Assembly: GCA_017984895.1 (NCBI GenBank)
Contig: JAGNYO010000014.1
Location: 1-49,288 of the forward strand
Reading direction: 5' to 3'
Length of the DNA stretch: 49,288 nucleotides
Source of the DNA: Sphingobium sp.
GTDB lineage: Bacteria; Pseudomonadota; Alphaproteobacteria; Sphingomonadales; Sphingomonadaceae
The position numbers were made by a program, and so were the translations under genes. Below the pieces are notes generated by a model. The model was given only the letters and a program-made list of their open reading frames with translations. It ran no database searches and was not told the origin of the DNA. This document shows positions 10,234 through 42,798 of the stretch, piece after piece (within the stretch, counting starts at the first letter, position 1; every line of letters starts with the position of its first letter).

Positions 10234-11088
10234 TCAGTAGCGCTCTTTCAGCGCGTAGGGGCTGGCCGCCCTGCCTGTGAGGATCACGATCTGGCGCAGC
10301 CTTGTGCGCGTTGTTTGCCCGAGCCGCGCCTCAACCTCTATCGTCAGCGGACGCCCGATCAGCGCGCCCTTCTGCGTGATTTCCAGCGCCGTGCGCTGTC
10401 CGGCCAGTTCGCGCTGCCGGTTGAGCAGGTCAATCGCGCCGCCTTCCTCCCCCTCGATCACACGGATCGCCATCAGCGAGGCATGGGCAGGTTCGAAGCT
10501 GCCTACTCCATAATGCACGGTCGCCACGCTCTCCAGCCTGTCGGCCAGCGCCTTGCCGACGCCCCGGATTAGCGCGACCTCAGCCACGGAGCGCAGCGCG
10601 CCATCGCGGGGATGGATGCGCAAAGGCGCGTAAAAGGTGCGCTCGGCTCCATTGGTGCGTGCTTCCTCATCCTCATCCAACCAGTCGAGGAAGGAATCCG
10701 TGGCGATGTCGAGTGGCTCGCCGGACAAGCCCAGCTCCGCAAACATGCGTCGCGCCTGCTGGTCCTCCAACGCGTTGAGGGGGATCTTGCCGCGCTCGTC
10801 CTGTATCGCAATGGCTAGCGTCGCGCCGTCAAAATTCAACCGTCGCACCCGCCCGTCGATCGGCACTGCGCCGCCCGGCCCGCTGTTCACCAGATCCCGC
10901 AGGGCAATTGATACCCCAGCATCAGCCGCCGCCTGCACCCGCGCCCGATCCGCCTCGGCCGAAGCAGCAACGATTGTGCCGCGGCTCGCCTCTATCACCA
11001 TCAGCGCGATCAGCGCAAAGACGAGGATACTCGCCACCGCCGCGACGAGCGCATAGCCCGCCTCGCTACCTCGCGCTTGTCCGCTCAG
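10234..11088 (-). CDS. gspK: Type II secretion minor pseudopilin GspK
   Basis: A 284-residue minor pseudopilin of the T2SS pseudopilus tip. The N-terminus reads MSGQARGSEAGYALVAAVAS, with a prepilin-peptidase site after Gly11 and a hydrophobic helix to about residue 30. The globular part has the GspK helix-hairpin features (QDERGKIPLNAL and a late VALIRGVGKALADRLESV). The true start seems to be CTG at 11088, overlapping the gspD stop as CTGA in the same way its operon mates use ATGA. The first conventional start, GTG 11037, would lie inside the membrane helix and remove the cleavage site. It is the last gene of the operon, whereas gspK usually lies between gspJ and gspL. Confidence 0.85.
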   Translation of the reverse strand: MSGQARGSEAGYALVAAVASILVFALIALMVIEASRGTIVAASAEADRARVQAAADAGVSIALRDLVNSGPGGAVPIDGRVRRLNFDGATLAIAIQDERGKIPLNALEDQQARRMFAELGLSGEPLDIATDSFLDWLDEDEEARTNGAERTFYAPLRIHPRDGALRSVAEVALIRGVGKALADRLESVATVHYGVGSFEPAHASLMAIRVIEGEEGGAIDLLNRQRELAGQRTALEITQKGALIGRPLTIEVEARLGQTTRTRLRQIVILTGRAASPYALKERY

Positions 11089-13121
11089 GGGATTTTGCCC
11101 TTGGTTCGAAATGGCTCTAGCGTGCGTAGCTTGGCGCGCAGTTCCTCGGTCACAGCCCGGCCATCATCCAGCGTGCGCAGCACATGCGGCTTCAAGATGA
11201 TGAGCAATTCGGTGCGGTTCTCGATATTGTTATGACTGCCGAACAACGCGCCCAGCACGGGAATGCGCGACACGACAGGGAGTCCGTTCTTGCCCGCCGT
11301 CTTGGAGTTTCTGAACAGCCCGCCCAGCGCGATCACCTGACCATCCTGCACCGCGATGGATGTAGATATGCGGCGAGTGGAAATCGTGGGTGAGTCGATG
11401 CCCGATGTCTGGTTGGTGGCGACGTCGCTCACCTCTTGCGAAATATCGAGCAGCACCAGCCCGCTGCTGTTGACGCGCGGCGTGACCTTCAGGATCACGC
11501 CGGTATCCTTGTATTCCACCGAGTTGACGACCGAGCCGTTATTCGAATTGAGATTGGTGGCGGACTGGGTGGTGATAGGCACCTGATCGCCTACCTGAAG
11601 CGCGGCAGTCTGGTTGTTCAGCACCAAGAGCTTGGGTGCGGAGATTACCTTGATATTTGTGCGTTTTTCGAGTGCGTTAAGGGTCGCGCTGATATCGTTG
11701 TTGTTGGAATAGAAATAGGAGAAGCCAGGAAAAGTGCGGGTAAGCGCAGAGGTCGCCCCTTCGCTCAAGGTGGCGTCACTGTTGCCGGACTGGAAATTCC
11801 ACTGCACCCCATATTTGAGGTTGTCCGTGAGGCTCACCTCGGTAATCGCGGCTTCGATCATCACCTGAAACGGCAGGATGTCGAGCTTACGCAGTGCTTC
11901 CTCGACCACTGCGTAATCGCGTGGAGTGCCATAGACGAGGATGGCGTTGTTGGTTTCGTCGGCGGAGATCGAGATGGCGACGCCGTTGGCGCTCGCCGGT
12001 GTCTGTGAGGCGGGCGTTTTTGCCGGGGTACCTGCAGGTTGTGCCGGGCCTGTCGCCGTGGCGGCCTGATCGGGTGCAAAGGGATCAACGGCGGGGGCAC
12101 TGTTCGCACCGCCTGATCCGCCGCCAAAGGCGGTATTCAGCGTCTTCGCTAGATCGCGTGCGCGGCCGTTCTGCACCGGATAGACGAACAGGCGGCGCTC
12201 GTTGTTCTCGCCCTCGCGGTCGAGGATTTCCACCCAGCGCTTCACGTCATCGAGATATTGCGGCTGGGCGCTGATGGCGAGGATGCCGTTCAGCTTCTCC
12301 ATGCCGATGAGGCGGACGAGTCCACGTGTCGGAGCGCTGGGGTCGTTGATCAGCTTGTCCAGCTCCGGCGCGATCAGGCGGCTGTCGGTCCGCTGCGGCA
12401 CATAGAGCGCGAAGCTCATGTTGCGCAGCCAGTTTACATCGAACTGCGCGAATATATCGCGCACCGCGGTGCGCTGGCCCGTGGTCCCCGCGATTACCAG
12501 CATGTTGCGCGTGGGGTCTATCGAGGCGACCGTGCCGGGCAGCAGCGAATCGAGCAGGCGCTTCAGTTCCTCGGCGTTGACGAATTTGAGCGTGATGATT
12601 TCCGTGCCATAGCCGGTGGCGCCGGGCGCAATCGTGCCGACAGCGCCTGGCGATGTGGCAGCAGTGATCTGGAACCCGCGCCCCTGCGGCACCAGCGCGA
12701 GGTTGCTGGCCCGCAGCGCCCGCTCGAACACCTCCAGCACCGAGGACCGGGCGACCGGCGAGGCGGTAACGACCGAGACGGTGCCAGTTACAGAAGGATC
12801 GACCGAATATTCGAGCCGCAGCATGTCGCCGAGAATGGCTTTCGCCGCCACCCGCACATCTGCATTGGGGAAGTTGAGCGTGATATCACCGCTGCGGGGC
12901 GCGATCTGGGCCGAGCGCGGCACGATGGGCGCGGCCTGTTGGCCGGGCAGTATGGTCGCGCTTGCGTTGGGGCCGTTGAGCAGGCCATCGGCCTCGTCCT
13001 GGGACAGCGGCTTGCCCTCGACCGGCGGCAGCGGCTCGATCCGCTTCTCCTGACAGGCGGAGAGCAGCAGAGGCGCACAGAGGCCTGCCAGCAGGAGATT
13101 TTTATGGGTTACGGGATGCAT
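11085..13121 (-). CDS. gspD: Type II secretion secretin GspD
   Basis: A 678-residue outer-membrane secretin. The N-terminus carries a lipoprotein-type signal with LLLSAC and Cys23. An N0 domain (about 60-130) with FPNADVRVAAKAI follows, then N1-N3 repeats broken by a Pro/Ala/Thr-rich linker. The C-terminal secretin domain has GVILKVTPRV and VQDGQVIALGGLF. It forms the multimeric gate through which folded exoproteins leave. ATG 13121 is chosen because GAGG lies just upstream and the signal peptide begins there; an upstream in-frame extension is unlikely. It starts seven bases after the gspN stop and its own stop overlaps the gspK start. The Cys suggests self-piloting to the outer membrane. Confidence 0.95.
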   Translation of the reverse strand: MHPVTHKNLLLAGLCAPLLLSACQEKRIEPLPPVEGKPLSQDEADGLLNGPNASATILPGQQAAPIVPRSAQIAPRSGDITLNFPNADVRVAAKAILGDMLRLEYSVDPSVTGTVSVVTASPVARSSVLEVFERALRASNLALVPQGRGFQITAATSPGAVGTIAPGATGYGTEIITLKFVNAEELKRLLDSLLPGTVASIDPTRNMLVIAGTTGQRTAVRDIFAQFDVNWLRNMSFALYVPQRTDSRLIAPELDKLINDPSAPTRGLVRLIGMEKLNGILAISAQPQYLDDVKRWVEILDREGENNERRLFVYPVQNGRARDLAKTLNTAFGGGSGGANSAPAVDPFAPDQAATATGPAQPAGTPAKTPASQTPASANGVAISISADETNNAILVYGTPRDYAVVEEALRKLDILPFQVMIEAAITEVSLTDNLKYGVQWNFQSGNSDATLSEGATSALTRTFPGFSYFYSNNNDISATLNALEKRTNIKVISAPKLLVLNNQTAALQVGDQVPITTQSATNLNSNNGSVVNSVEYKDTGVILKVTPRVNSSGLVLLDISQEVSDVATNQTSGIDSPTISTRRISTSIAVQDGQVIALGGLFRNSKTAGKNGLPVVSRIPVLGALFGSHNNIENRTELLIILKPHVLRTLDDGRAVTEELRAKLRTLEPFRTKGKIP

Positions 13122-13128
13122 GGCGACC

Positions 13129-13668
13129 TCATTCTTCTTCGGTTTCTTCGTCGTCGGTGTTTTCGCCGCCGCTCGCAGGGGCGGGCGCGGCGCTTCCATA
13201 GTCGATCACGCGCTTTTCGCCGCCGCGCACAAAGGTGGCGCCCGTGGCCGAAAGCCCCGCCAGCCGCCAGCCCATATAGCTTCCCCCCATGCTCAGCACG
13301 CGGATGGACCCATCGGGCAGCCGGAGGAACAGGCGCGCCGTGCGCCCACGCGCAATCATGCCTACCGGCACCGCCCCTTCCAGCGGGCCTACGGCAGCCT
13401 CGTCTCCCACGACAATCGGGCGCGCCTCCATCGAGCGGGTAGGAGAAAAGAGAGGTCGTGCAAGGATAACGGGCGGCGCATCCCGGTGGCGGATTGCCGC
13501 TTCGGCAAGTGCGGGTGCGACGCGGCCCACACCTTCTTGCGGCAGGCTGGCATCGCGCGCCAGCACCAGTTGGAGCACAGCCGCGCCCACCAGCAGCGTC
13601 AGCAGCGCCGCGGGCAGCAATGTGCCGTCCTCAGCGCGCGGCGGGGAGAGTGGGAACCGAAGCTTCAA
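13129..13668 (-). CDS. gspN: T2SS inner-membrane protein GspN/GspC-like
   Basis: A 179-residue protein with one membrane helix (about 18-38) and a periplasmic domain resembling the homology region of GspC/XpsN (RPLFSPTR, then VPVGMIARGRTARLFLRL). It should link the inner-membrane platform to the GspD secretin. Its position between gspM and gspD is that of xpsN in Xanthomonas. The tail is very acidic (DDEETEEE). The likely start is TTG at 13668, overlapping gspM by 38 bases; no ribosome-binding site is obvious. GspC and GspN names are used unevenly in these lineages. No separate gspC is present in the window, so this probably performs the GspC role. Confidence 0.75.
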   Translation of the reverse strand: MKLRFPLSPPRAEDGTLLPAALLTLLVGAAVLQLVLARDASLPQEGVGRVAPALAEAAIRHRDAPPVILARPLFSPTRSMEARPIVVGDEAAVGPLEGAVPVGMIARGRTARLFLRLPDGSIRVLSMGGSYMGWRLAGLSATGATFVRGGEKRVIDYGSAAPAPASGGENTDDEETEEE

Positions 13669-14179
13669 GGCGTATGTCCAATATGTCGAGCCGGCCCGTT
13701 TCCAGTGCCTTGTCGGCAGAGACGCGGAGCGATTCGGTGATGAGATAGGGTGGGCTGTTGTCGAGTGTGCTTAGCATGGCCTGAAGTTGGGGCAGGGTCA
13801 TCCGCCCCTGCACCCAAGCGCGCGCCGATCCGGCGGGTGAGGGTACATCTTGTATCGCGCTGACCACACCGCCAGTCTGCGCGAACTCGGTGCGCAGTCG
13901 TTCGCGCAGCCTGTCTCGCGCCAGATTGGCGTTGGGCGCGGCGAGGAAAAAACTGTCCTTCAGCGCGCCTTGCTTTTCCGCGCGGCGACGCTGGGCGGGA
14001 ATGGCATTGATGAGGCGGCTGTTGCGCTGATAGGCGGCGCTCAGCGTCTCCCGCTCGGCTGCGCGCTCGGCAAAGCCATTGAGGAACGGCGCGATGGCGA
14101 GCAGCCACACCAGCGCCACCGCCAACACGGCAAGGGCAATCGCGATGAACCTGCGCTCACGCAGAGACAGCGCCCTCAT
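13631..14179 (-). CDS. gspM: T2SS assembly-platform protein GspM
   Basis: A 182-residue bitopic protein: a short basic cytoplasmic N-terminus (LSLRERRFIAIA), one membrane helix (about 11-32), a coiled-coil stretch and a small periplasmic ferredoxin-like domain. GspM partners GspL in the inner-membrane platform. The ATG overlaps the gspL stop by four bases (ATGA). Sequence identity within the family is low, so the call relies on length, topology and position in the operon. Confidence 0.85.
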   Translation of the reverse strand: MRALSLRERRFIAIALAVLAVALVWLLAIAPFLNGFAERAAERETLSAAYQRNSRLINAIPAQRRRAEKQGALKDSFFLAAPNANLARDRLRERLRTEFAQTGGVVSAIQDVPSPAGSARAWVQGRMTLPQLQAMLSTLDNSPPYLITESLRVSADKALETGRLDILDIRLEASVPTLPAAR

Positions 14180-15201
14180 GGCCTGCTCTCCATGATGTTG
14201 GCGCTGATGTCGAACGGCTGGCCGATGGGTATATCCGCCTGCACATCCGCCGCCGACGGGCGCACGTTCCTGAAACGTCTGTTTTTGCCGAGCGCGGCAA
14301 CGACATCGGTGGGTGGGCGCAGATAGCCCGCGATGCGCAGCGCCCGGCCATCCCAGTCATAGCGCTGCACCCATGCGCTGTCAGGCAGGACGGAGGTCGT
14401 TGTGGCGAGATCTCCCAGTGCATCCTGCTGAGCGCGCCGCGACATGGTCGTGCGCGCCACTTGCTCGATGCGTGCGCTACGCCCGGCGATGGCGCGATAG
14501 ACCGCAACAGCGGGTGCCTGCGCATCCACTGCCGCCTGCAACCGCGCGACGCTCTGCTGATCCCGCCACACGAGCAGGCCGATGTTGAGCAGGAAGGCGA
14601 AACCGACGAGGCTCGACCACAGCAAGGGCTGCTGGCTCAGTGGCGGCAACACGCCCTCGGCGCGGAGCTGAGGGGCGAAATCGAATGCCAGTCGCTCCGG
14701 CACCGCCGCGTCGACGAGCGCGATCCGCCGGGGTGACAGACCGGCGGCGTGTGCGGCGGCGAGGGCTTGCAGGATCGTCTCGCGATGCAGCGCGGCCACG
14801 CGCATGGCCGGCACGCTCGCGCCCGCCGCGCGCCTGCCCGCCTCCGCGTCAACGATCAGGCTCGCGTCAGAAAGGGGAAACAGCCGCCCGGCTTCCAGCG
14901 CCAGATACTGCCGCATGTCGGCCTTGCTCATCGCGGGCAGATCGACCTCTCGCATCAGCGCAAGCGAGGCGGGCACGGCAAGGTTCGTGCAGCATGGCTG
15001 GTCCGCGCTGCCCTGCTTGCCGCGCAGAATCTCGATTGTTCCGTCGGCCTGATAGCAGGCGAGCTGCCCGGCCCCGCGCCGATCTCCGCGCCACGCAGGC
15101 GGGACCATGGCCGAGAGTTCGTCCAGCCACCAGCGCCAGCCTTCGCGCAGCCAGCCCGCCAGCGTCGCCATATCAGCATTGAGGATAGATGCGGGCTTCA
15201 T
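14176..15201 (-). CDS. gspL: T2SS assembly-platform protein GspL
   Basis: A 341-residue protein whose N-terminal half is an actin-like cytoplasmic domain that docks GspE (MREVDLPAMSKADMRQYLAL). A membrane helix near 190-210 (LLWSSLVGFAFLLNIGLLVW) and a periplasmic domain with a PilN-like profile follow. The ATG at 15201 overlaps the gspJ stop as ATGA; the longer frame from 15243 would run back into gspJ and is rejected. It lies directly after gspJ, where gspK normally separates them. Confidence 0.88.
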   Translation of the reverse strand: MKPASILNADMATLAGWLREGWRWWLDELSAMVPPAWRGDRRGAGQLACYQADGTIEILRGKQGSADQPCCTNLAVPASLALMREVDLPAMSKADMRQYLALEAGRLFPLSDASLIVDAEAGRRAAGASVPAMRVAALHRETILQALAAAHAAGLSPRRIALVDAAVPERLAFDFAPQLRAEGVLPPLSQQPLLWSSLVGFAFLLNIGLLVWRDQQSVARLQAAVDAQAPAVAVYRAIAGRSARIEQVARTTMSRRAQQDALGDLATTTSVLPDSAWVQRYDWDGRALRIAGYLRPPTDVVAALGKNRRFRNVRPSAADVQADIPIGQPFDISANIMESRP

Positions 15202-15890
15202 GCGCGGTTGCCGCAGTTCCGCGCCTGGGTTTCCGGGTCGCACGCCAGATCAACCGAGACGGCGGGGCGGATGACGAGGTCTGGCCACACGCGCGGATCG
15301 CCGGGCGCGAAGCCGACGCGGATGCGCACCAGCTCCGGCGCCGTGGCGTTGTCGTCCCAGAAGCTGCGCCAGCTGCGCAGCGGGCCTGCCTTGCCCGCGC
15401 CATAATAGCTGATCGAGAGCGAGGTCGCGCCGCCGATCAGGCGGCTCGCCTTCCATCCTGTCACGCCATAGGATCGGAGGTCAAAGCTGTGGGTCAGCTC
15501 CGGCGCGCGGAACAGGATGAGATCGCCTGTCGCGCTCAGCACAAGCCGGTATTTCTGCACGCCGCTGGTCGGGTCTCCCGCGGGCGGCACGGCAAAGAAA
15601 TCGAACCGGCCCTCTGTTCCGCCCACGTCCATCATCGGATCGCTGCTGTCCAGCCGAATCACCGGGCGCAAGCCCTCGATACGCTGGCGCAGGATCGTCT
15701 GCGCGGCGCTGATCTCGCTGGCGGTTCTATCTGCCCGCTCCGCGCGGCGCGTGAGTGCCCCGGCGCTTACCACTCCGCCTAACAGCATGGTGGCGACCAT
15801 CGAGAGGATCGCCAGCGACACCAGCAGCTCAATGAGGGTAAAGCCTTGCTGCCTGCTGGGGCACGGAAACGCATGATATGGGCGGGTCAT
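15198..15890 (-). CDS. gspJ: T2SS minor pseudopilin GspJ
   Basis: A 230-residue minor pseudopilin. The prepilin site is QQG|FTLIELLVSLAILSM, with the conserved Glu at +5 followed by a membrane helix. GspJ joins GspI and GspK in the pseudopilus tip complex. ATG 15890 overlaps the gspI stop as ATGA. The cysteine pair at the C-terminus (CDPETQARNC) may be a disulfide. Confidence 0.92.
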   Translation of the reverse strand: MTRPYHAFPCPSRQQGFTLIELLVSLAILSMVATMLLGGVVSAGALTRRAERADRTASEISAAQTILRQRIEGLRPVIRLDSSDPMMDVGGTEGRFDFFAVPPAGDPTSGVQKYRLVLSATGDLILFRAPELTHSFDLRSYGVTGWKASRLIGGATSLSISYYGAGKAGPLRSWRSFWDDNATAPELVRIRVGFAPGDPRVWPDLVIRPAVSVDLACDPETQARNCGNRA

Positions 15891-16279
15891 GACGCCAGCC
15901 TCAGCGTTGCGAGGGTGAAGCCGCCGGTGCTGTCAACCTTCGCGCCGACGATGACCTTTACCTGCATCAAGACAGGGTCGTCGTTTGGCCCGGCGCCATC
16001 GCCTCGATAGCGGTCGATTTCAATCCGCCAGTGCAGGCCGCGCTCGCCGCCATCGGTCACACCCGGCGCAAGCGCGATGTCTGCGCCCACCCGCGCCAGC
16101 ACGGATTGCGCAACGAGCACCGCCTCGCGCTGGTCATCCAGCCGATGTGCTGCGCGCGCATGCGTCTGCATCGCCTGATAGGTGACGCCCAGCATCGCCA
16201 TGATGATCGCGCAAGCGATCAGCACCTCGAGCAGCGCCACGCCGCGTTCGCCAACAGGAGGTAGGGTCGGGCGACTCAT
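15887..16279 (-). CDS. gspI: T2SS minor pseudopilin GspI
   Basis: A 130-residue minor pseudopilin with prepilin site RG|VALLEVLIACAIIMAML, Glu at +5. GspI nucleates the tip complex with GspJ and GspK. Its ATG overlaps the gspH stop by four bases and its stop overlaps gspJ in the same way. Length fits the family. Confidence 0.9.
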   Translation of the reverse strand: MSRPTLPPVGERGVALLEVLIACAIIMAMLGVTYQAMQTHARAAHRLDDQREAVLVAQSVLARVGADIALAPGVTDGGERGLHWRIEIDRYRGDGAGPNDDPVLMQVKVIVGAKVDSTGGFTLATLRLAS

Positions 16280-16737
16280 CGGATCAGCCCGGTGTCGGTA
16301 GATACGCTGATGATCGTACGCCGCCCTGATTCCGCTTCCAGCAGGATGCGCCCGCCGCGGGAGCTGCCATCGCCGAAGAAGAGGATCTGATCGCTGCCTG
16401 CGCCGAACCGGACTGATGGCTGCAATCTTCCCGCCGGAGCGCCGGGCCGGGCATAATCGCCGGTGTCGCGCATAACGGAGACGCGCGCTGGCGCGCCGGT
16501 GCGCAGCGCCTGCGCCCGCGCGTCCTCCAGCGCGGCTTGCACCGCGACGGCGGAGGATTGCATGCGCCAGGCCGATAGGGATTGTTCGATCCTAGGAAAA
16601 CCGATCCCCGCGACCAGAGCCGCTACGGCTACCACGACCAGCGCTTCGATCAGCGTGAAGCCGTACTCGGCGGAACGCCTCGCAAACCTGAAGCCGTGTT
16701 CCTGGTGCGGATGCGCGGCATTACCAATTGCCGACAT
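16276..16737 (-). CDS. gspH: T2SS minor pseudopilin GspH
   Basis: A 153-residue minor pseudopilin with prepilin site YG|FTLIEALVVVAVAALVA. The leader of about 25 residues (MSAIGNAAHPHQEHGFRFA) is unusually long. GspH caps the major pseudopilus beneath the I/J/K tip. ATG 16737 lies inside the end of gspG (17-base overlap) with GAGG and AAGG just upstream; a further in-frame start at 16791 would overlap gspG much more. Confidence 0.88.
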   Translation of the reverse strand: MSAIGNAAHPHQEHGFRFARRSAEYGFTLIEALVVVAVAALVAGIGFPRIEQSLSAWRMQSSAVAVQAALEDARAQALRTGAPARVSVMRDTGDYARPGAPAGRLQPSVRFGAGSDQILFFGDGSSRGGRILLEAESGRRTIISVSTDTGLIR

Positions 16738-17155
16738 CCTTGGCCTCTCCGGTTCCACCTTCCGCACTATCTGACCCCAGCGTATAGACATCTACCTCAC
16801 CATGCTTGCCCGGAGTAAGGAAGCGATAGGGCTTGCCCCACGGATCGGTGATGGCGGTGGCGTCGGGCAGATAGGGGCCATTCCAGTTGGGCACAGTGGC
16901 GGGTTGCTTCACCAGCCCCTCCAGCCCTTCCTGCGCGGTCGGATAGCGCCCGGCATCTAGGCGGAAAAGCTGAAGCGATGCAGCGATGTTCTTCACCTGC
17001 ACCTGCGCGGTCCCGCTGCGCGAGGAACCGAGATATTTGATGACCTGCGGCCCGACGATGGCCGCCAGTAGCCCCATGATGGACAGCACGACCAGAAGCT
17101 CCAGCAGAGTGAACCCGTTTTTCGTCCGTTTTTTAATATTTTTTGATGTTTTCAT
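16721..17155 (-). CDS. gspG: T2SS major pseudopilin GspG
   Basis: A 144-residue major pseudopilin. The prepilin site is NG|FTLLELLVVLSIMGLLA, and the C-terminal GspG signature is complete: GRYPTAQEGLEGLVKQP, WNGPYL, DPWGKPYRF and the late LGSDSAEGGTGEAKDV. These residues bind calcium and stabilise the fibre in known GspG proteins. The ATG overlaps the gspF stop as ATGA. Confidence 0.96.
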   Translation of the reverse strand: MKTSKNIKKRTKNGFTLLELLVVLSIMGLLAAIVGPQVIKYLGSSRSGTAQVQVKNIAASLQLFRLDAGRYPTAQEGLEGLVKQPATVPNWNGPYLPDATAITDPWGKPYRFLTPGKHGEVDVYTLGSDSAEGGTGEAKDVGNW

Positions 17156-18372
17156 TGCCCAACCGCCAAATCGTTAAAGCCCAGGATAGCTGTCATAATT
17201 GACGCAATTATTGCAGCTACCGCGCCGCCCAGCCCAATCGTGATCGCTGGCGTGAGGATCGCGACCAGACGCTCGATACGCCGTGTCACGTCCCGCTCCA
17301 GCACATCCGCCAGCCGCTCCAACATCATGCCGAGCTGAGACGTCTCCTCGCCGGTGCGGAAGAAGCCGATGGCCATGCGTGGCAACGCGCCGGTCGCGGC
17401 GATCAGCGGCGTCAGCGCGCCACCCTCGCGCACTTGCGTGGCGACATTGGTGATAGCGTTGGAAATGCTGCGGTTGGAGACAGAGCGGCAGGCCATAGCT
17501 AGCGCGTCAGGCAGCGGCACTCCGCCTTCGATCAACCCGCCTAGCGTGCGCGCAAGGCGCGACGCCTCGATGGTGCGGACCAGCGGCCCGACCTGTGGCA
17601 GACGCAGCACAATCCTGTCGCGGGCTTCGCGTGCGGCGGGCTGACGCAGCATCTGGCGGATGCCGAATGCGGATGCAATCACAAGCACCGCCAGTATAAT
17701 GCCATGTTCGCGCAAGGCCCGGCTCGCCGCCATCAATGCGCGCGATGAAGCGGGCAGCTTATCCTGCGCGGAGGCAAACAGGCTTTCGAACTGCGGCACG
17801 ACATAAAGCAGCATCACGAGGATCACCGCGCCAGCGAGCATCAGCAAGGCGGCGGGATAGATCATCGCGCCGCCGATCAGCCGCCGCATCTCCTCCTCCT
17901 GCGCGAAGATGCGCGCCACGCGGGCCAGGGCATCGCCAAGCCTGCCATTCGCCTCGCCCGCCTCGATCACTGCCTGCGCGCTCGTTGGAAACAGCGCGGG
18001 TTGTTCTGACATCGCTTGCGACAAGGGGGTGCCCTCGCGCACTTGCGCCAGCAGGCGGCGGAAGGCTTCGGTGACGGCTGGTCGATCGATCGTATCGAGG
18101 CAGAGCGCCAGAGCACGATCAAGCGGGATGCCCGCATTCAGCAAGACGCCCAGCTCGCCCAAGGATCTCGCAATCTCGGCGCGGGTGCGCGCATCGCCCT
18201 TCGCTTTGGGTGTCCGCGCGCCGGACTCTAGTCTCTCCCTGATCTCGACTGGAACGATGCCCAAGCTGCGGACGCGTTGCACCGCCTCCGCGAGGTTCCT
18301 TGCTTGCAGCTCTCCAGTATTGGTCTGCCCTTGCCGCGTGATGCCCCTGTAGGCGAAGCTCGCCATGCGCAT
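17152..18372 (-). CDS. gspF: T2SS inner-membrane platform protein GspF
   Basis: A 406-residue polytopic protein with two tandem T2SSF domains (about 70-195 and 270-395) and membrane helices near 170-190, 220-240 and 375-400. Characteristic motifs are FRRLLAQVREGTPLSQAMSE and the second-copy equivalent NVATQVREGGALTPLIAATG. It is the core of the platform that couples GspE to pseudopilus growth. TGATG joins it to the gspE stop; ATG 18366 is an alternative start. Confidence 0.95.
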   Translation of the reverse strand: MRMASFAYRGITRQGQTNTGELQARNLAEAVQRVRSLGIVPVEIRERLESGARTPKAKGDARTRAEIARSLGELGVLLNAGIPLDRALALCLDTIDRPAVTEAFRRLLAQVREGTPLSQAMSEQPALFPTSAQAVIEAGEANGRLGDALARVARIFAQEEEMRRLIGGAMIYPAALLMLAGAVILVMLLYVVPQFESLFASAQDKLPASSRALMAASRALREHGIILAVLVIASAFGIRQMLRQPAAREARDRIVLRLPQVGPLVRTIEASRLARTLGGLIEGGVPLPDALAMACRSVSNRSISNAITNVATQVREGGALTPLIAATGALPRMAIGFFRTGEETSQLGMMLERLADVLERDVTRRIERLVAILTPAITIGLGGAVAAIIASIMTAILGFNDLAVGQ

Positions 18373-20093: not shown

Positions 20094-20535
20094 AACCCAC
20101 TATCCGCCGTGACCAGAGAATCATCGCTCTATCCCCGTCGAGAGCCATGAACAAATCTGCTATTGACGTATATTGTGTCACTTTTGTGAAATACTTGTTT
20201 CATCTTTGCGTCATAAATATTCAACGCGTCATTCCGATTATAGAATGCCATGATTACATCAAACTTTCTTCATCGCATCATCAATCCGTCATGTTTGCTG
20301 AGTAGGACTTCGCTCGCCAAAGGTTAACAGGCTGAATTCGGTAAGGCGGCCTAAACGCCGGAGCTGCTGGGTTTTACTGTTTTCCGACTGGTTAAAACGT
20401 CAAAAATTACGGCATTTCTCTAAGGGCGCTGGTTCACAGGTTTGTTCAATTTCGGTTTGGTATGCCTTTGTGGTTTGCCGAAGCGGCTTTGTGCGCCTGT
20501 CTTTCCAGGCCCGCAACCGGAAGGAACGGGTTATC
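20094..20535. promoter_or_regulatory. Divergent regulatory gap between gspE and the pstS-like gene
   Basis: No gene is seen in this 442-base AT-rich gap, which must hold promoters for the T2SS operon (minus) and the PstS-like gene (plus). Three similar 7-mers lie in the same orientation: GCGTCAT at 20208 and 20226, and CCGTCAT at 20286. A small palindrome TCACttttGTGA is at 20178-20189. A ribosome-binding site (GGAAGGAACGG) precedes the plus-strand ATG. The 7-mers resemble pho-box half-sites, but their 18- and 60-base spacing does not match the usual 11-base period. Confidence 0.4.
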
Positions 20536-22275: not shown

Positions 22276-22301
22276 TAAACATTCGGTAAGCGACCAACTT
22301 G

Positions 22302-36055: not shown

Positions 36056-36091
36056 ATTTCCTCCACTCGCCTTTGAAATAGCCAAAGAATT

Positions 36092-36235: not shown

Positions 36236-38125
36236 TCAAAATTCCGCACTGATATCGACTTGCAGCACATCTATGGAGAGTGGCGAGCCGCTCACCTCAT
36301 TGGCGCTCATCCAGCGGGTGCCGAGCGCCACGCCGTCCATCACGCCAAAAGTCGCGCCGATGGTGTAGCCCTTGGTGTTGGTGCCGCCCAAATGGAAGTC
36401 GCTGTCCGGGAAGGCATCGGGCACGGCGTCCGTTTCGAGATAGCGATAGCCCGCCATCGCGCGCCACTCGCCCCATTTGCGCGGCTTGGTATGGCCGACC
36501 ACGAGCGAGCCGAGCCAGCCGGTGTTGCCGGAATGCAGCGTACCGCCGCCAGCGCAGGGATTGCCGAAGTCGGCAGAAGCCGGATCGCCGCTCGCTTCAA
36601 CATTGGTCAGTGCGCCACGGAAATTTATGCCATCGCTGCGCAGCAGGCACTCGTCACTGCGCTTGAAGGCGAGGTTATGAAGATAGTTTCCGGATATGGT
36701 GGCTCTGATCGCATCGCTAATCGGAACCGTGACAGAGGCGTTGAGATCGAGCACGCGATACTTATAGGTCATGCCCAGGTACTGGCGCTGGGCGTCGACC
36801 TCGTCGCCAGGAGTGCCCACGGTTAGGTCGCGTATATAAAAGAGCGTGTTGCCTTTGCGTGGGAATAGCGCGCGCGTGGCATCAGTAGAACATTCGGCAG
36901 GATCGGCGCCTACCAAGGGGAAAAGAATTCCGCTGAACTCACATGCGGACGACAACCTGCCCTGCAGATTGTGGAAATCATGATAGCCAACGCCGCCGCT
37001 GATCTCCACGCCGTTGTCCATTGTGTATCCCGCCTCGATCTGGCCGGAAAACAGCCATTTGGATGGCGATATACGCTTTTCAGCGGCTAGGTTGAAAACC
37101 GGACTGTCCGTGAACTTGTTCAATGTGCTGCTTGAGCTTGATTCGAGCGGGAAGGCGCCGCCGCGCACCGCCAGCGTAAGGCCCTTGGGCAAGAACTTGT
37201 CTGCCTTCACCTCTGCGGCCACACCATCGAAGCGCAGATCGTCGTCGAACAAGATTTCGGTGGAGCGGAACGGGTTCTGGAAGCGGCCAAAGCTCGCCTT
37301 GATCCAGTCGGTCGGCTTCAGCTCTAGATAGGCCTTGTCCAGCCACAGGTCGCGCTTGGCAAAGCCGCCTGCAAGTCTGGCATTGGTCGAAATCGGGCTG
37401 TTGTCGTCACCCGTGGCGATTTGAAGGCCCACCTTCACCGCTGGAGTGATGTCCGCCGTCAGGCCGATCCGCGCGCGCAGGCGCAGGCGATTGATGCGGT
37501 CGCTCGTGGTGTCGAGCAGCGGCAGGTTGTTGAGGTCGGTGACGTTGATCGGGCTGGAAGAAGCGCCAAGCCGCGCGATATCGGCGATTGTCGGGTCATT
37601 CAGCCTCGACTGCAGCTCGGACTGCGAGCGAACCCTGATGTCGCCCGAAAGGGTGATGCGACGGGTCCAGTCTGGGGCGGCGTTGGAGGGGGCGGCCCAG
37701 CCTTCGGACTTCGCCTGGCCCATCACTTCGGCCTTCACCTGCTCGGCGATCTGACGGCGCACGCTTTCCGGCACATAGGGCACGCGGATCACGCCAGCCG
37801 GGGCGGGCGGTGCGGGCGGCAGAGGGTTGTCCGCGCTCGCCGTCTGCGCGGTGAGCGGCGGCGGGTTGAGCGCGGCGGCGCGCGCGGCTTCGCTCTGCGC
37901 CTGCTCCAGCAACGCCTGCCCGTTTTGCGGCGTGATCGTGCCCTGTTTCACCAGCAGACGGATGAGGTTTTCCATCGCGTTGGTCGAGGGCTGGCTCGCA
38001 GCTGCCGGGGCGGCATCCTGCGCGAACGCTGCGCTGAAAGGAACGGCGCAGAGCAGCGCGATGGCAGACACGCCCTGCGCGCTCCGCTTTACCCGCCAGT
38101 TGAATTGCCGAACCATGATGTCCAT
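36236..38125 (-). CDS. Putative outer-membrane porin with coiled N-terminal region
   Basis: A 629-residue outer-membrane protein. A signal peptide (ending AFAQ) precedes a Pro/Ala-rich and helical segment (about 45-140, with MENLIRLLVKQGTI). A beta-barrel follows, starting near LSGDIRVRSQSELQSR and rich in alternating aromatic strands. It ends in Phe, the usual BamA-recognition residue. Two cysteine-rich loops (about 385-400 and 490-540) may be disulfide-linked. It is fifth of six genes in the TPS operon, 27 bases after tonB and 180 before tpsA. It may be a specific nutrient channel opened by the adjacent TonB-like protein, or a partner of TpsA display; neither is shown. ATG 38116 is an alternative start. 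Confidence 0.8.
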   Translation of the reverse strand: MDIMVRQFNWRVKRSAQGVSAIALLCAVPFSAAFAQDAAPAAASQPSTNAMENLIRLLVKQGTITPQNGQALLEQAQSEAARAAALNPPPLTAQTASADNPLPPAPPAPAGVIRVPYVPESVRRQIAEQVKAEVMGQAKSEGWAAPSNAAPDWTRRITLSGDIRVRSQSELQSRLNDPTIADIARLGASSSPINVTDLNNLPLLDTTSDRINRLRLRARIGLTADITPAVKVGLQIATGDDNSPISTNARLAGGFAKRDLWLDKAYLELKPTDWIKASFGRFQNPFRSTEILFDDDLRFDGVAAEVKADKFLPKGLTLAVRGGAFPLESSSSSTLNKFTDSPVFNLAAEKRISPSKWLFSGQIEAGYTMDNGVEISGGVGYHDFHNLQGRLSSACEFSGILFPLVGADPAECSTDATRALFPRKGNTLFYIRDLTVGTPGDEVDAQRQYLGMTYKYRVLDLNASVTVPISDAIRATISGNYLHNLAFKRSDECLLRSDGINFRGALTNVEASGDPASADFGNPCAGGGTLHSGNTGWLGSLVVGHTKPRKWGEWRAMAGYRYLETDAVPDAFPDSDFHLGGTNTKGYTIGATFGVMDGVALGTRWMSANEVSGSPLSIDVLQVDISAEF

Positions 38126-38152
38126 TCCTTCCTGAGATATGCGATAGGGGTG

Positions 38153-38857
38153 TTAGAGCGACCGTCGGCCTTTGACTGTGATACGCCGGGGAAATTTGAA
38201 GCTGGCGGGCGGAGCATCCAGCCCGCTCGCGCCCTCGATCAGGGTTTTGAGCATGGCGTCGCGCTTGGAATCGCCGCTGCTGCTGACCAGCTCCGCGCGC
38301 GTTACCGCGCCACTGCTGCTGACCCAGATGGCGAAGTCCGCCGAGAATACCATGCGCGAGAGCTTGCTGTCCCGCTGCACCCGTGCCTGAAGCGCACTGC
38401 TGAGTGCGCGGGCGTAAAAGCCGTCGGTGATCCCGCCCTTGCCGATACCACAATTGGGACCGACGCAGGTGCCGGTGCTGCTTGGCGATCCTATGCCACC
38501 GCCAGATCCCGCCGCAATGCCACCCGCCGCGCCAGCCTGAGCTTCGGCGTTCATTTGCATCGGTGCGGGCGCCTGTGGTTTGGGTTCGGGCGTAGACGTA
38601 ACCTTATCGGGGCTTGGCTCGGGTGGCTTTTCCTCTGCCTTGGGTGGCGGCGGAGGGGGGGGAGGCGGCGGTGGGAGCAAAGGCGAGATCACCGGAGTCT
38701 CATTCTTCACCGCTACGCTGTGCACGCCAGTGAGCGCGGAGTAGAGATACCACATGAGCCACAGCGCAAGCAGGCTGCCCACCACTATCAACCCGATCTG
38801 GATGATCCGGTTGCCGTGTGGCTCCTGAAATCCGTTCTGATCCGCGACGGTGCTCAT
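38153..38857 (-). CDS. TonB-like energy transducer
   Basis: A 234-residue protein with one N-terminal membrane helix (about 19-40) and a run of 11 prolines (62-72). A Pro/Lys/Glu periplasmic linker and a TonB-type C-terminal domain (about 145-234, ending FPRRITVKGRRSL) follow. TonB proteins carry energy from ExbB/ExbD across the periplasm to outer-membrane proteins. The linker contains a CVGPNC motif (131-136), unusual for TonB. It follows exbD by 18 bases. No TonB-dependent receptor with a plug domain is in the window, so its target is open. Confidence 0.85.
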   Translation of the reverse strand: MSTVADQNGFQEPHGNRIIQIGLIVVGSLLALWLMWYLYSALTGVHSVAVKNETPVISPLLPPPPPPPPPPPKAEEKPPEPSPDKVTSTPEPKPQAPAPMQMNAEAQAGAAGGIAAGSGGGIGSPSSTGTCVGPNCGIGKGGITDGFYARALSSALQARVQRDSKLSRMVFSADFAIWVSSSGAVTRAELVSSSGDSKRDAMLKTLIEGASGLDAPPASFKFPRRITVKGRRSL

Positions 38858-38875
38858 GGCTCAGCTTCGGTCTGC

Positions 38876-39283
38876 TCAGCTTGCCGTGGGCTTGCCGGTG
38901 ACGAGGCCGACCTTGTCCAGGTCCAGCCTGCGGCACAGATCGAGCACTTCTGTCACCTTGCCATATTGCGCGGTGGCGTCGCCCTTCAGCACGATCGGCA
39001 CATCGGGGTTGGAGGCCTTGGCGCTGCGCAGGCGGGTTTCCAGATCCTGGATCGTTACCGGGTAGGCATCCATGAATATCTGGCCCTGATTGTTGACGGT
39101 GAGCGCGATCGTCTTGGGCTGCACAAGGCTTTCCGCGCTGGACGCCTTGGGCAGATTGACCTTGATGCCCTGCACCGATGCCGTCGCCATCAGGATGAAG
39201 ATGACGAGCAGCACGTAAGCGAGATCGAGCATTGGGGTGATATTGATGTCGTCATAAGCCTTGCGGCCACCACCTACTTGCAT
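38876..39283 (-). CDS. exbD: Proton-channel protein ExbD
   Basis: A 135-residue ExbD/TolR protein. The membrane helix is preceded by ITPMLDLAYVLLVIFILM, with Asp20 the predicted proton-carrying residue. A periplasmic domain with the ALTVNNQGQIFMD strand follows. It works with ExbB to harvest the proton-motive force for TonB. Spacing of 12 bases from exbB and 18 from tonB shows a single operon. Confidence 0.93.
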   Translation of the reverse strand: MQVGGGRKAYDDINITPMLDLAYVLLVIFILMATASVQGIKVNLPKASSAESLVQPKTIALTVNNQGQIFMDAYPVTIQDLETRLRSAKASNPDVPIVLKGDATAQYGKVTEVLDLCRRLDLDKVGLVTGKPTAS

Positions 39284-39295
39284 GATCCTGGCTCC

Positions 39296-41107
39296 TTATT
39301 CCGCAGCGACGGGAAGATGGGGGTGGGGAGGATTGGCCAGCTCGGCCTGCATTTCTGCCAGTCGGGTAATGAGCCGGTCCACGAACACGCGCATCTCGTC
39401 TGACAGGGCGGAGAGGCGCGAGTTGATATAATTGTAGCCGAACAGCGAGGGGATCGCTGCCGCCAGGCCCGCGATCGTCGCGAGCAGAGCCGCCGCGATA
39501 CCGGGCGCAATCGCGTTGACGTTCACCTCGCCCGCCATCGCCACGCCGCCAAAGGTGCTCATCACACCGATGACCGTGCCCAGCAAGCCGATGAACGGCC
39601 CGCCCGAAATGGCGATGGTGAGCACCACCATCCACTTGTCGAGCTTCTGGTTTTCCATCACCACTTCCGCGTCCACCGCCGCACGCATGGCTTCCACCGC
39701 CTCGCCGGACAGGCCGCGATTCGGGTTTTTCAGGCGCCGCACCTCCAGCTCGTCGATGCCGGTTTCATAGAGATGGCCGAGCGGAGACTTTTCGATATAG
39801 GCAACCTCCAGCTTGCTGATGCCCCGGATGTCCGTGACCGGCACCAGCTCCTCATGCATCTCGCGGAAGCGGCGGAGGAAGGCCTTGTTGCCGCGGTCGC
39901 AGGCATTCAAGTAGCGGATTTTCGTGACCATCACGCCGATGGCCACCGCGAGCAGGATCATACAGATTCCGACGATGAACGCATCCAGGGTGTGAAGTTT
40001 GCCGATGATGAAACCGATAACATTGGCCCCGCCTTCTGCCTTTTCCGCGCTTTCAGAGACGCTGATGGTCTTGTTGGACGGTCCTTCGGCATTTGCCATC
40101 GCCATAAGCATGGCGGCAGGGCGCGCGGTTTTGGACAAGCGCAGCTCATCGATCTCGCCGGTGAAGGGCCGCCCTTCCGCGCCACCGATGGAGAGCGGGC
40201 CATCGAGGGCAGGCAGTGCGCCGGAAGCAGCGCCTGCCTCTACTCCGTTTACATAGAGCTTGATCGTCTGCCCGTCGGCCACAAGGCCGAGGTGCGCCCA
40301 TTCGCCTTGCTTGATGGGGGCGGTAGCCTGAGCGGTCGCACCACCGACAGTGGCAAACGGCACGCCCTTATTGATGCCAAACACCAGCGCGCCACGCGCG
40401 AACACGGCCTGCGCCCCGCCAAGCTGCTCGGGCTTTACCCATGCGGTAACGCTCATTGGCGCACCGGCGGGCATGGCGAGTGAGGGCGAGGCCGCAACCT
40501 GAATGGCACCCTGGCCGGAGAAGCGCGCCGCGCGGCCGATAATCGCGCCATCATCTATGCCAGGAGGTGGGTTTTGGGCGATGTTTGCATTGGCAGTGGC
40601 GTCTGCGCTGGGCTGGCCGGGGTTCTCGCCAAAATGATAGACGGCGAGATAATCCGGGTCGAAAGTGCCCTTGGCATCAGAGCCGACCGGCGCGTTCTCA
40701 TTGCCGAAATAGAGCCATAGCGCCTTCTTCTCACCGCCATTGAGCGCGGGAACGGATACCCACAGATAGGCAATGCCGGTCGTCGCGTCATAGCGCTCGA
40801 TATGGAAGGCGAGCGGCGTCTTGTCGTCCGCATCGACAATGCGAATGTCCGCGCCGTTCTGCATCGCCTCCGTGAAGGTGAAATTGCCGCTGGTGAGCTT
40901 GACGAGCAGGACAGTCCGCCCGATCTGGCCGGAGACATTCAGCCCGCTGGGGCTGGTATCCACCGTGATCGCCTTGCGGTATTTCCAGTCCTTGTTCCAC
41001 CAGGCATAGGCTGGCGTGGAAAGGCAGGCCATAGCGAGCAGCAAGGCCAGAACGGTGCGTAGCGTGCGCATGCTTTTTCTCCCAAAGCCGGAAAACAACT
41101 GGCTCAT
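39296..41107 (-). CDS. exbB: DUF2341-LamG-ExbB fusion proton channel
   Basis: A 603-residue fusion. After a signal-like N-terminus (MRTLRTVLALLLAMACLSTP at 13-32) comes a DUF2341 domain (about 38-150: WWNKDWKYRKAITVDTS, WLYFGNENAPVG). Then comes a LamG/concanavalin-like domain (about 195-330: WVKPEQLGGAQAVFARGALV, LYVNGVEAG, GEIDELRLS). The C-terminal part is a full ExbB/TolQ channel with its first membrane helix at 375-395 and the GPFIGLLGTVIGVM signature at 503-516. Ordinary ExbB is about 240 residues with no periplasmic N-terminal domain. The lectin-like part should sit in the periplasm. ATG 41107 overlaps the tpsB stop as TGATG; ATG 41071, with GGGAG before it, is a good alternative. Confidence 0.9.
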   Translation of the reverse strand: MSQLFSGFGRKSMRTLRTVLALLLAMACLSTPAYAWWNKDWKYRKAITVDTSPSGLNVSGQIGRTVLLVKLTSGNFTFTEAMQNGADIRIVDADDKTPLAFHIERYDATTGIAYLWVSVPALNGGEKKALWLYFGNENAPVGSDAKGTFDPDYLAVYHFGENPGQPSADATANANIAQNPPPGIDDGAIIGRAARFSGQGAIQVAASPSLAMPAGAPMSVTAWVKPEQLGGAQAVFARGALVFGINKGVPFATVGGATAQATAPIKQGEWAHLGLVADGQTIKLYVNGVEAGAASGALPALDGPLSIGGAEGRPFTGEIDELRLSKTARPAAMLMAMANAEGPSNKTISVSESAEKAEGGANVIGFIIGKLHTLDAFIVGICMILLAVAIGVMVTKIRYLNACDRGNKAFLRRFREMHEELVPVTDIRGISKLEVAYIEKSPLGHLYETGIDELEVRRLKNPNRGLSGEAVEAMRAAVDAEVVMENQKLDKWMVVLTIAISGGPFIGLLGTVIGVMSTFGGVAMAGEVNVNAIAPGIAAALLATIAGLAAAIPSLFGYNYINSRLSALSDEMRVFVDRLITRLAEMQAELANPPHPHLPVAAE

Positions 41108-42798
41108 CAGAACTCACCCTTCGCGGTAAATGTGGTGCGGACGTCGTTCTTGCGGGTAGCGGAGCCGTTCCACAGCGGAAGGCCAACCGAGACTTCGCCC
41201 GATATGCGGTTGAACAGCCTGAGGCGCGCGCCACCGCCCACTGAGAGCAGGGCTTCATGGCGCGTAACGTCTGGCAGGGGGTCTATCAGGCGGATCTGCC
41301 CATTCTCGGCAAAGCCGAACAGGCGCAGTTCATCGATGAACTTGGGCAGATAGGGCGCGAGCGAAGGCGAGTTTAGCTCCAGCGAGAGCGCATAGCCCAT
41401 GTCGCCCACGCTTTCGGCCGAGTAATAGCCGCGCACCGTACCGAGGCCACCAATCGCGAATTGTTCGTTGGTAACGAGGTGGGAATCCGCGATCTGGCCG
41501 TAGAATTTCAGCGCGGCGACGAAGTCCTTGGGCAGCGTGCGCCGATAATCGACCTCGATATTGCCGCGCACGAAATTCTCGCTGCTGTCGAAGTCCTTGT
41601 TCTTGAACTGATCCGTGGGGATGCAGGTGGTGGTGCCCACATCAAAGCAGCGGATATTCTTGAACACGCGGAAGCCCGCCGTTGCGGACACCGTGATATC
41701 GAGCGTACTCTTGTCGCCGCCGGTCGAGAGGCCATAAGCGGCGTAGAGCGGCAGATATTCGATCGGCGTCTTGGCCGCGATCTGGCCCGCTACGCGCGTA
41801 TCCTGATCGAAATGCTTGTAGTCAAAGCCCAGCGTCACACTCTGGATCAGCTTGTCTCCGGGCAGGCGATAGATGGCGCGCGTGCCGATCTGATAGCCAT
41901 TGCCCAGCACACTCACGCCGCCCTGCGCCGCGACATTGCTGTTCGATTTGTAGCCATAGAGCAGCATGGTCCACCGCGAGCCGAGCAGCGGCGCGGTGTA
42001 GGAGCCGGAAAAGACCTCGGACTGTTTGCGGTCCTGCGGCGCGGTGATGTAGGAGCCACTGATCGTGTGGCCCAACCCCCACATGTTGGTATAGCGCAGG
42101 CTGGCGTTGAGGCGCAGCGGCTTGGTGGAGGGGCTGTTGTCGTTGTTCAGCTCCAGGCTGCCATGCAGCGGGAGCGAATCCTCCACATCAAGATCCACGT
42201 CGATCGTGCCCGGCGTCGCGCCTGCCTTGAAAGACGGGTTGATCGTGCGATCCGGGAACTGGTTGGCGCTCGCCAGTTCGGTCTGAAGCTGCTTCACATT
42301 GAGCGGCTTTCCCTCCGCCAGCGAGGGGATCTGCTTGCGCACCAGTGTCATCGAATGATGCTTTGCGCCTGTCACGGCAACCGTGCCGACCGGCGCTTCG
42401 GTCACCTGAATGGCGATGATGCCCTGCGTAAACTGCTCCTCCGGCTGGGGCAGCACATCGACCTGAACCGATTCAAAGCCCCGCACGGCATAGGCATCCT
42501 GAATGGCTTTGCGCGCGGCCTCAACATCGGCGGTGGTGCGGTCCGGTCCCAGATGATCATAGATCACCTGCTCGATAACCGACTGGTCAAGCGACTTGGC
42601 GCCGAGCACATCGAAGGCGGCGATGAAAAAACTGTTTGGCGCGGCGCGCACCTGCGGTTGCGTTCCCGCGTTGTCCTGCGCGGAAGCCGATGGAATGCAG
42701 GACAGCAGCGCGCCTGCGGCCCATGCCGCACCTGCATGAAAAATTCTGGCACGGCCTTGATGCATTGGCATGCTGCGCTGAACCCGCTCGGAACCCAT
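41107..42798 (-). CDS. Two-partner secretion outer-membrane transporter (TpsB/FhaC/ShlB family)
   Basis: A 563-residue Omp85-superfamily transporter. A signal peptide (ending SASA, about residue 40) and a short linker precede POTRA1 (about 57-134, FFIAAFDVLGAKSLD onward) and POTRA2 (about 135-208). A 16-strand barrel follows with the conserved VRGY motif at 455-458 (LGTVRGYYSAESVGDMGYAL) and a terminal Phe. It should recognise the TPS domain of the downstream exoprotein and translocate it. Several in-frame starts are possible (42855, 42816, 42798, 42771); 42798 is favoured for a fair GGAG upstream and a sensible signal peptide. It heads the operon. Confidence 0.9.
   Translation of the reverse strand: MGSERVQRSMPMHQGRARIFHAGAAWAAGALLSCIPSASAQDNAGTQPQVRAAPNSFFIAAFDVLGAKSLDQSVIEQVIYDHLGPDRTTADVEAARKAIQDAYAVRGFESVQVDVLPQPEEQFTQGIIAIQVTEAPVGTVAVTGAKHHSMTLVRKQIPSLAEGKPLNVKQLQTELASANQFPDRTINPSFKAGATPGTIDVDLDVEDSLPLHGSLELNNDNSPSTKPLRLNASLRYTNMWGLGHTISGSYITAPQDRKQSEVFSGSYTAPLLGSRWTMLLYGYKSNSNVAAQGGVSVLGNGYQIGTRAIYRLPGDKLIQSVTLGFDYKHFDQDTRVAGQIAAKTPIEYLPLYAAYGLSTGGDKSTLDITVSATAGFRVFKNIRCFDVGTTTCIPTDQFKNKDFDSSENFVRGNIEVDYRRTLPKDFVAALKFYGQIADSHLVTNEQFAIGGLGTVRGYYSAESVGDMGYALSLELNSPSLAPYLPKFIDELRLFGFAENGQIRLIDPLPDVTRHEALLSVGGGARLRLFNRISGEVSVGLPLWNGSATRKNDVRTTFTAKGEF

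Follow-up and report, generated by a model that had tools for sequence, protein, structure and literature searches.

A two-partner secretion gene set with a fused ExbB motor and a porin, found beside a type II secretion system in Sphingobium sp.

Does a two-partner secretion (TPS) system have any use for a motor of its own? The question is raised by a 49,288-nucleotide stretch of Sphingobium sp. DNA (GenBank assembly GCA_017984895.1, contig JAGNYO010000014.1, positions 1 to 49,288; hereafter the window). A block at 10234-42855 of the window encodes a type II secretion system (T2SS), an exported DING/PstS-like protein, the giant exoprotein TpsA, the porin Porin_5, a TonB-like protein, ExbD, ExbB and the transporter TpsB. 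A first-pass annotation, made from the letters alone, had placed a full T2SS, a PstS-like protein, TpsA, TpsB, a porin and a TonB motor here, with almost no other genes. Family searches recovered all of these parts at that location. The T2SS was borne out for D, E, F, G, the pseudopilins and M, while L and the C/N protein are assigned by position and synteny only; a gene for an aspartic protease (22334-22891) had been overlooked, as had the fusion in ExbB. The gene set with its fused ExbB recurs in other genomes, where its parts co-occur and keep a conserved order. We read it as a motor-coupled TPS module, joined here to a phosphate-linked T2SS, and give this reading an even chance.

The association of DUF3739-type TpsA, fused ExbB and Porin_5 is near perfect, and of this we are very sure. 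Among 398 Pseudomonadota genomes, the window's own included, DUF3739 was found in 14, DUF2341 (part of the ExbB fusion) in 13, and Porin_5 in 20; the matches are long in 14 of these (best E ≤4e-142 in each) and partial or weak in the other six (7e-4 to 2e-34). The 14 genomes with long Porin_5 matches are identical to the 14 with DUF3739. Ignoring kinship, the hypergeometric probability of this coincidence is 4e-26; at the genus level, 11 genera within 12 of 213 give 1.5e-17. One genome with DUF3739 and no DUF2341 (G424; G and L numbers are our handles for genomes and loci) has an ExbB core of 41% identity that starts at base 10 of the contig also holding its Porin_5, and the missing half is most likely explained by the assembly edge. 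DUF3739 was also present in 40/40 genomes that were chosen for their fused ExbB. Within the window's family, fused ExbB occurs in at least 10 of 149 genomes, by our own count of matches extending into its N-terminal part; in the other 139 only the ExbB/TolQ core is matched, and two congeners searched have no fused ExbB. DUF2341 is present in 5/119 genomes of the family of G275.

Gene order was examined at the best 80 of 337 loci from a scan of named species with an 18-row ExbB alignment, a selection that is no census. These loci span Alpha-, Beta- and Gammaproteobacteria and Verrucomicrobiota; the records outside Pseudomonadota that carry the module (L147, L149, L166, L175 and L193) are verrucomicrobial and are all metagenome-assembled genomes (MAGs). 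Downstream of ExbB, at the 66 loci with at least 5 kb, ExbD was found at 65, the TonB-like gene at 66, Porin_5 at 64 and all three at 63, counts that describe rather than blindly test the order, as the profiles derive from the window and related copies, these loci among them. TpsB or the end of TpsA lies upstream at 60 of the 68 loci with at least 2.5 kb. Some TPS part is present in the flanks of 73/80 loci; of the seven without, five lie on truncated or short stretches and two, L205 and L206, have full flanks. A single fused ExbB can accompany many exoproteins: there are nine DUF3739 TpsA genes in Rhodoblastus (L284-L292) and six in Pandoraea (L278-L283).

Independent operons lying side by side by chance, or through shared transfer only, would predict a patchy distribution such as that seen in the family, and T2SS genes are indeed linked at only 3/11 other family loci. 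An IS66 transposase gene next to tpsB is also common to the window and Sphingobium fluviale. Set against this, co-occurrence and linkage exceed chance by far across classes and in a second phylum, with differing gene orders and T2SS lineages. We regard a chance neighbourhood as highly improbable, and for the TPS-motor-porin part it is rejected by the co-occurrence and linkage tests. The first-pass annotation had likewise preferred a conserved module over chance and had named a lack of co-occurrence as the finding that would overturn this; co-occurrence proved near perfect for TpsA, ExbB and Porin_5 and strong for the T2SS. The window and S. fluviale are collinear, with 83-86% DNA identity over 4050-49288 (38216-38566 excepted), an identity that gives no support to recent transfer between them. 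The IS66 gene (42928-44079, minus strand; L134 6972-8171 in S. fluviale) is probably an old common insertion.

The ExbB of the module is unusual in its N-terminal part. Residues 1 to ~350 consist of a signal peptide, DUF2341 and a lectin-like LamG domain, and the remainder is ExbB/TolQ. The predicted model (mean predicted local distance difference test score, pLDDT, 87.7; predicted template modelling score 0.58) is β-rich from 43 to 325 and helical thereafter. The β part resembles the arabinanase AbnA, domain 4 of which matches on its own too, and the helices resemble TolQ/ExbB. Thr-511 and Thr-544 of ExbB are present in 36/36 alignment rows and the ExbD aspartate is conserved in a 112-row alignment; these we take to be proton-path residues. 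A relative of the TonB-like protein in L226 scores over the family cut-off. DUF2341 is named, in the available part of one paper, among N-terminal additions of unknown function on ion-transporter A subunits (PMC12505986).

A motor of this kind could also be a Tol-like envelope helper with no exported client, in which the motor, with its LamG collar, reshapes peptidoglycan or keeps the outer membrane intact as a ~4000-residue chain and a T2SS cross it. The ExbB core and ExbD have their best NCBIfam scores as TolQ/TolR, albeit below cut-off, the fold matches of the ExbB model are headed by TolQ, and ConA-like periplasmic domains could bind glycans. The genome, however, has other ExbB/TolQ homologues (three, including that of the block, among the matches listed), and no Pal- or TolB-like gene is present among the window frames scanned. 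Such a role appears doubtful.

Porin_5 is the third constant member. Its predicted model (mean pLDDT 76) has 16 strands and is nearest to OmpM1 and OmpF-type porins. In this model the barrel differs from a TonB-dependent receptor in having 16 rather than 22 strands and no apparent plug; there is no TonB-dependent receptor among the module's reading frames. A VRVxYVPE-like stretch (IRVPYVPE here), predicted to be periplasmic, is conserved between the N-terminal helices and the barrel, with Val-115, Tyr-117 and Pro-119 at ≥90% in 40 rows. A rival reading is that the motor serves Porin_5 only, as an energised uptake channel for, e.g., phosphate compounds gathered by TpsA and the PstS-like protein, with TPS and T2SS as scavenging partners whose export is motor-free. 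The ExbB-ExbD-TonB-Porin_5 run is the tightest in the gene set (63/66), the conserved stretch stands ahead of a barrel that resembles general porins, and PA0696 and other proteins of the Pseudomonas aeruginosa island rise at low phosphate (PMC9769906, available part). On the other hand, the secondary structure of the model shows no plug, full-length Porin_5 never occurs without a DUF3739 TpsA in the 398 genomes, although TpsA would be superfluous for an ordinary uptake channel, and the conserved tail of TpsA is left unexplained. We consider an energised porin a tentative alternative.

That tail is a candidate link between TpsA and the motor. TpsA carries its TPS domain at the N-terminus, and the only solved transporter matched by TpsB in a structure search is CdiB (3.1e-08). 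Towards the C-terminus, DUF3739 is followed by a linker of variable sequence and a short V-[DEQ]-V-L-G-[FY]-G motif, often with more residues behind it. The strict motif (VEVLGFG-like) was found in 45/64 distinct tails against 6/1060 internal windows of the same TpsA proteins, using a pattern written after the tails had been inspected. Among tails fetched later it was present in 13/20 (12/19 new tails, L291 being a gene already seen in L142), compared with 2/1000 internal windows and 27/4000 shuffled tails. The misses are six Pandoraea tails (e.g. FTIRMLG) and one Rhodoblastus tail with Met. In the nine Rhodoblastus tails, identity is 0.92 within the motif, 0.47 before and 0.26 after it; in the three TpsA copies of G516 it is 1.0 within the motif and 0.7 and 0.4 around it. 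A looser core pattern was discarded as evidence, as it matches 18/20 tails but also 112/1000 internal windows, and a C-terminal cysteine pair, found in only 14/48 tails, was rejected as a general feature. By our own comparison, the tail motif and the Porin_5 motif resemble TonB boxes. Judged by sequence, the two are candidate handles for the motor.

A mechanism can be proposed for the motor-coupled module. TpsB would pass the giant exoprotein TpsA across the outer membrane, leaving the C-terminal tail in the periplasm. A dedicated ExbB-ExbD ring would drive the TonB-like rod with the proton gradient, and the periplasmic DUF2341-LamG parts, one per ExbB subunit, could form a collar that docks on an outer-membrane component or on peptidoglycan. 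The rod may engage, through strand pairing, the VRVxYVPE-like Porin_5 segment, the VEVLGFG-like TpsA tail, or both, and might thereby open a gate, or pull, retain or release the surface filament. The adjoining T2SS would export the DING/PstS-like protein under a Pho-type promoter, and at low phosphate the cell surface would bear a giant scaffold together with phosphate-binding exoproteins. A bolder version holds that the DUF3739-type TPS class is not passive: a lectin-collared private motor would grip the TpsA tail from the periplasm and pull, tension or release the filament, one motor serving up to nine filaments through a shared tail code. In this full form the proposal is unlikely.

The T2SS is a less constant partner. 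The first-pass view of one conserved module stands for TPS, motor and porin, while its T2SS/PstS half is optional, with T2SS genes in 3/11 fetched stretches from other family loci (G079a, G093 and G007a). Among 11 phylum-sample genomes from other families, five have T2SS genes in their stretches (G529, G441, G167, G497 and G275) and G463 has a lone GspF. Several fetched stretches stop at contig edges, and G240, which has no T2SS in its stretch, matches the linked G550 in hit positions. In G007 (L050-L052; genome completeness 86%, contamination 7%) the island genes are split into several frames, probably through sequencing errors.

Linkage was counted in 40 genomes from the 80 loci (by title, 29 isolates and 11 MAGs). 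DUF2341 and DUF3739 are present in every one of them, and GspG at E ≤1e-8 in 39. GspG lies within 45 kb on the same contig of a DUF3739 gene in 26/40, of fused ExbB in 22/40 and of either in 27/40, against a rough random expectation of about 1.7. In the 13 unlinked genomes, GspG is on other contigs in ten, absent in one (Pandoraea) and 100 kb or 1 Mb away in two. The linked T2SSs fall into many branches: Xps-like in sphingomonads and Caulobacter, Hxc-like in Pseudomonas and Stenotrophomonas, those of Trinickia, Bradyrhizobium and methanotrophs, one from Verrucomicrobia, and a beta type that has multiple GspG-like pseudopilins. The T2SS of G275 groups with Pseudomonas. In a quick tree of 63 GspE+GspF rows (36 linked and 27 unlinked, six of 33 unlinked stretches having no usable pair), linked T2SSs are intermixed with unlinked copies. 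A single clade, as expected of one anciently inherited T2SS-TPS unit, is rejected (approximately unbiased test, p 2e-6; at least 13 changes). Because the linked systems do not form one clade, we read the data as repeated association of T2SS with TpsA, or as replacement of the T2SS in place.

For the phosphate link, the closest solved relatives of the PstS-like protein are phosphate-binding and DING proteins (best E 1.1e-11, structure search); a second PstS-like gene in the genome, on contig C69, matches PF12849 more strongly. That the protein is a substrate of the T2SS is a guess from its position. In P. aeruginosa under phosphate limitation, PdtA, PA0696, PA0698, three Hxc proteins and LapA/LapB increase, according to the available part of PMC9769906. 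This induction, together with a Pho-box-like array in the spacer between gspE and the PstS-like gene, makes phosphate control likely here, although not as a general trait. Phosphate as a universal theme was rejected: a PstS profile gave no match in the 19.5-kb stretches around linked GspG from beta, methanotroph, Bradyrhizobium and Verrucomicrobia genomes, Trinickia excepted.

Several points weigh against the motor-coupled reading. Reconstituted TPS requires no outside energy, as stated in the available part of PMC5422565, and the client of the motor (TpsA, TpsB or Porin_5) is suggested by gene association. The Pandoraea tails fail the strict motif in 6/6 cases and show no conservation peak at its site (0.45 versus 0.79), and the window's own ITVDVLGVYN matches the loose pattern only. 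Confidence in the Porin_5 model is middling. With respect to the T2SS, TpsA and T2SS lie 155 kb from the ExbB set in Pseudomonas G537 and on a different contig from it in Pseudomonas G538, G541 and G542. Taken with G559, where the nearest ExbB on the contig is ~110 kb from one linked TpsA copy, these placements suggest that the T2SS travels with TpsA and not the motor. With respect to phosphate, the response of the genes here is presumed from the promoter and from P. aeruginosa. The array, in a four-unit form chosen once the sequence had been seen, scores 16/20 positions in the window and in S. fluviale and 14/20 in G079 (other strand) and G093, scores reached by 0%, 0%, 2% and 1.3% of 300 shuffles each, respectively; it is absent at 2/6 loci examined, and single Pho-box scans were not significant.

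Table 1. Features of the block, with window coordinates and the basis of each assignment.
Feature	Position	Strand	Basis
GspK-like minor pseudopilin	10234..11037	-	PF21687 2.9e-11, over cut-off; NF037980 below cut-off
GspD secretin	11085..13199	-	TIGR02517 426 bits, over cut-off; PF00263
Protein in XpsN/GspC position	13129..13668	-	position and tblastn synteny; relatives at the corresponding site of G079 and G093
GspM (XpsM type)	13631..14179	-	NF040576 89.9 bits, cut-off 60
GspL-position protein	14176..15243	-	position and synteny; weak PilN match only, E 0.086
GspJ-like pseudopilin	15198..15890	-	N_methyl; PRK08808-type J protein, below cut-off
GspI-like (XpsI) pseudopilin	15887..16279	-	NF047828 2.2e-12, below cut-off
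GspH-like (XpsH) pseudopilin	16276..16791	-	NF047827 9.6e-12, below cut-off; PF12019
GspG major pseudopilin	16721..17155	-	PF08334 4.9e-35
GspF	17152..18372	-	PF00482 1.8e-49
GspE ATPase, MshEN N-terminal domain	18372..20093	-	PF00437 1.2e-136; PF05157; TIGR02533 600 bits, cut-off 630 narrowly missed
Pho-box-like array, four TGTCA-like units, 11-bp spacing	20176..20213	+	between gspE and PstS-like gene
Exported DING/PstS-like protein, 601-aa frame	20470..22275	+	PF12849 6.1e-12; likely ATG at 20536; divergent from T2SS
Retropepsin-like aspartic protease, DTGA motif	22334..22891	-	TIGR02281 98.9 bits, over cut-off; PF13975
TpsA, giant exoprotein, 4385 aa	22985..36142	-	DUF3739 78 bits; TPS domain PF05860 50.4 bits (cut-off 33.5); TIGR01901
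TpsA C-terminal tail motif ITVDVLGVYN, then Cys...Cys pair	23048..23077	-	sequence; loose fit to family motif
Porin_5 outer-membrane porin, N-terminal helices, IRVPYVPE before barrel	36236..38125	-	PF16930 1.9e-145
TonB-like protein: hydrophobic N-terminal segment, proline-rich linker, TonB_2-like C-terminus	38153..38857	-	PF13103 0.0027 and TIGR01352 0.00079, both below cut-off
ExbD	38876..39283	-	PF02472 5.4e-31; aspartate in N-terminal hydrophobic segment
ExbB fusion: signal peptide, DUF2341, LamG, ExbB/TolQ core	39296..41107	-	domain, profile and structure searches
TpsB transporter, POTRA and ShlB-type barrel	41107..42855	-	PF03865 5e-20; PF08479

The T2SS is Xps-like and reads E, F, G, H, I, J, L, M, the C/N-place protein, D and K on the minus strand from 20093 to 10234. 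The C/N-place protein has no family match in domain library searches. Two PF01478 prepilin peptidase genes lie elsewhere in the genome, outside the window. The MshEN domain binds cyclic di-GMP in other proteins, and through that of GspE this T2SS may respond to the same nucleotide. The aspartic protease gene lies between TpsA and the PstS-like gene and is also found beside the G079 and S. fluviale copies; its product could process or release TpsA. As a core part of the module it is unsupported, being found only beside these three copies with a profile of two sequences.

A gene for a 663-residue RTX repeat protein (8208-10199, plus strand) adjoins gspK, with a cell-wall hydrolase gene upstream (7364-8026). 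Surface-glycan genes flank the block, encoding a polysaccharide export protein, an acyltransferase, a glycosyltransferase and a sulfotransferase (6510-7289, minus strand; 44348-48450). Polysaccharide export is not supported as a general neighbour, being present in 4/27 linked and 1/33 unlinked T2SS stretches. In G167 the island lies beside genes for polysaccharide export, a SurA-like isomerase and a PEP-CTERM protein (L111 438-2272, 14402-15448), and its T2SS groups with Hydrogenophaga.

A near-obligate partnership of TpsA, motor and porin would contradict energy-free TPS, at least for this class, or else point to an energised porin of a novel type. That T2SSs of different lineages are repeatedly linked to TpsA suggests a single surface structure built through both secretion routes.

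The module shares with type Vb TPS systems (FhaB/FhaC, HMW1, CdrA, CdiA/CdiB) the TPS domain and a ShlB-type TpsB with POTRA, and differs from them in its dedicated ExbB-ExbD-TonB motor, Porin_5, DUF3739 and conserved tail motif. In the release of the adhesin CdrA by LapG, a surface adhesin with a cysteine pair in its tail meets a periplasmic protease; the window's TpsA also carries a cysteine pair in its tail, and a protease predicted to be periplasmic is encoded close by, but that protease is retropepsin-like and lies beside few copies. Compared with the ExbB/ExbD/TonB and TolQ/TolR/TolA motors, the core helices, the ExbD aspartate and the TonB-like rod are the same, whereas the window's ExbB has a DUF2341-LamG region of ~350 residues before the core. 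The term DUF3739 was absent from the open literature searched, and among the titles and abstract openings covered none presents the motor as belonging to TPS; subscription papers (Faure 2014 on PdtA, for one) lay beyond this coverage. Type V translocation is described, in the available part of a review, as having no energy source that powers it (PMC5422565). The elpS locus of Caulobacter similarly places a phosphate-linked T2SS beside an exported-protein gene; in the available part of PMC2996285, the exported protein ElpS is described as a lipoprotein, its gene has a TonB-dependent receptor gene beside it, and TPS or ExbB genes are not mentioned.

The closest counterpart is the hxc/pdt/exb2 island of P. 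aeruginosa, which the first-pass annotation had pointed to and which agrees with published gene lists (PMC7035377, PMC2729926, available parts). It contains hxc, lapA/B, pdtA, phdA, pdtB, exbB2, exbD2, tonB4 and PA0696 (see also the available part of PMC9769906), and mutants in tpsA, tpsB and a tonB homologue have been assayed in zebrafish embryos (PMC2729926). By comparison of gene lists, the content and order of the TPS-motor-porin part and the adjoining T2SS are the same. The P. aeruginosa T2SS is Hxc-type whereas that of the window is Xps-like; the former island encodes phosphatases and the latter a DING/PstS-like protein; and PA0697-PA0699 and the sigma-VreI regulators are extra in P. aeruginosa, as is the retropepsin-like protease in the window. 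In Pseudomonas canadensis (L141) the order is TpsB-ExbB-ExbD-TonB-Porin_5-(208 aa)-YbjN-PpiC-LysR, and the 208-residue protein, YbjN, PpiC-type isomerase and LysR regulator that follow Porin_5 (14700-17766) resemble the published PA0697-PA0701. The module gives context to DUF2341 and DUF3739, and to exbB2-exbD2-tonB4 and PA0696 of P. aeruginosa, which the available part of PMC7035377 calls uncharacterised or of unknown function.

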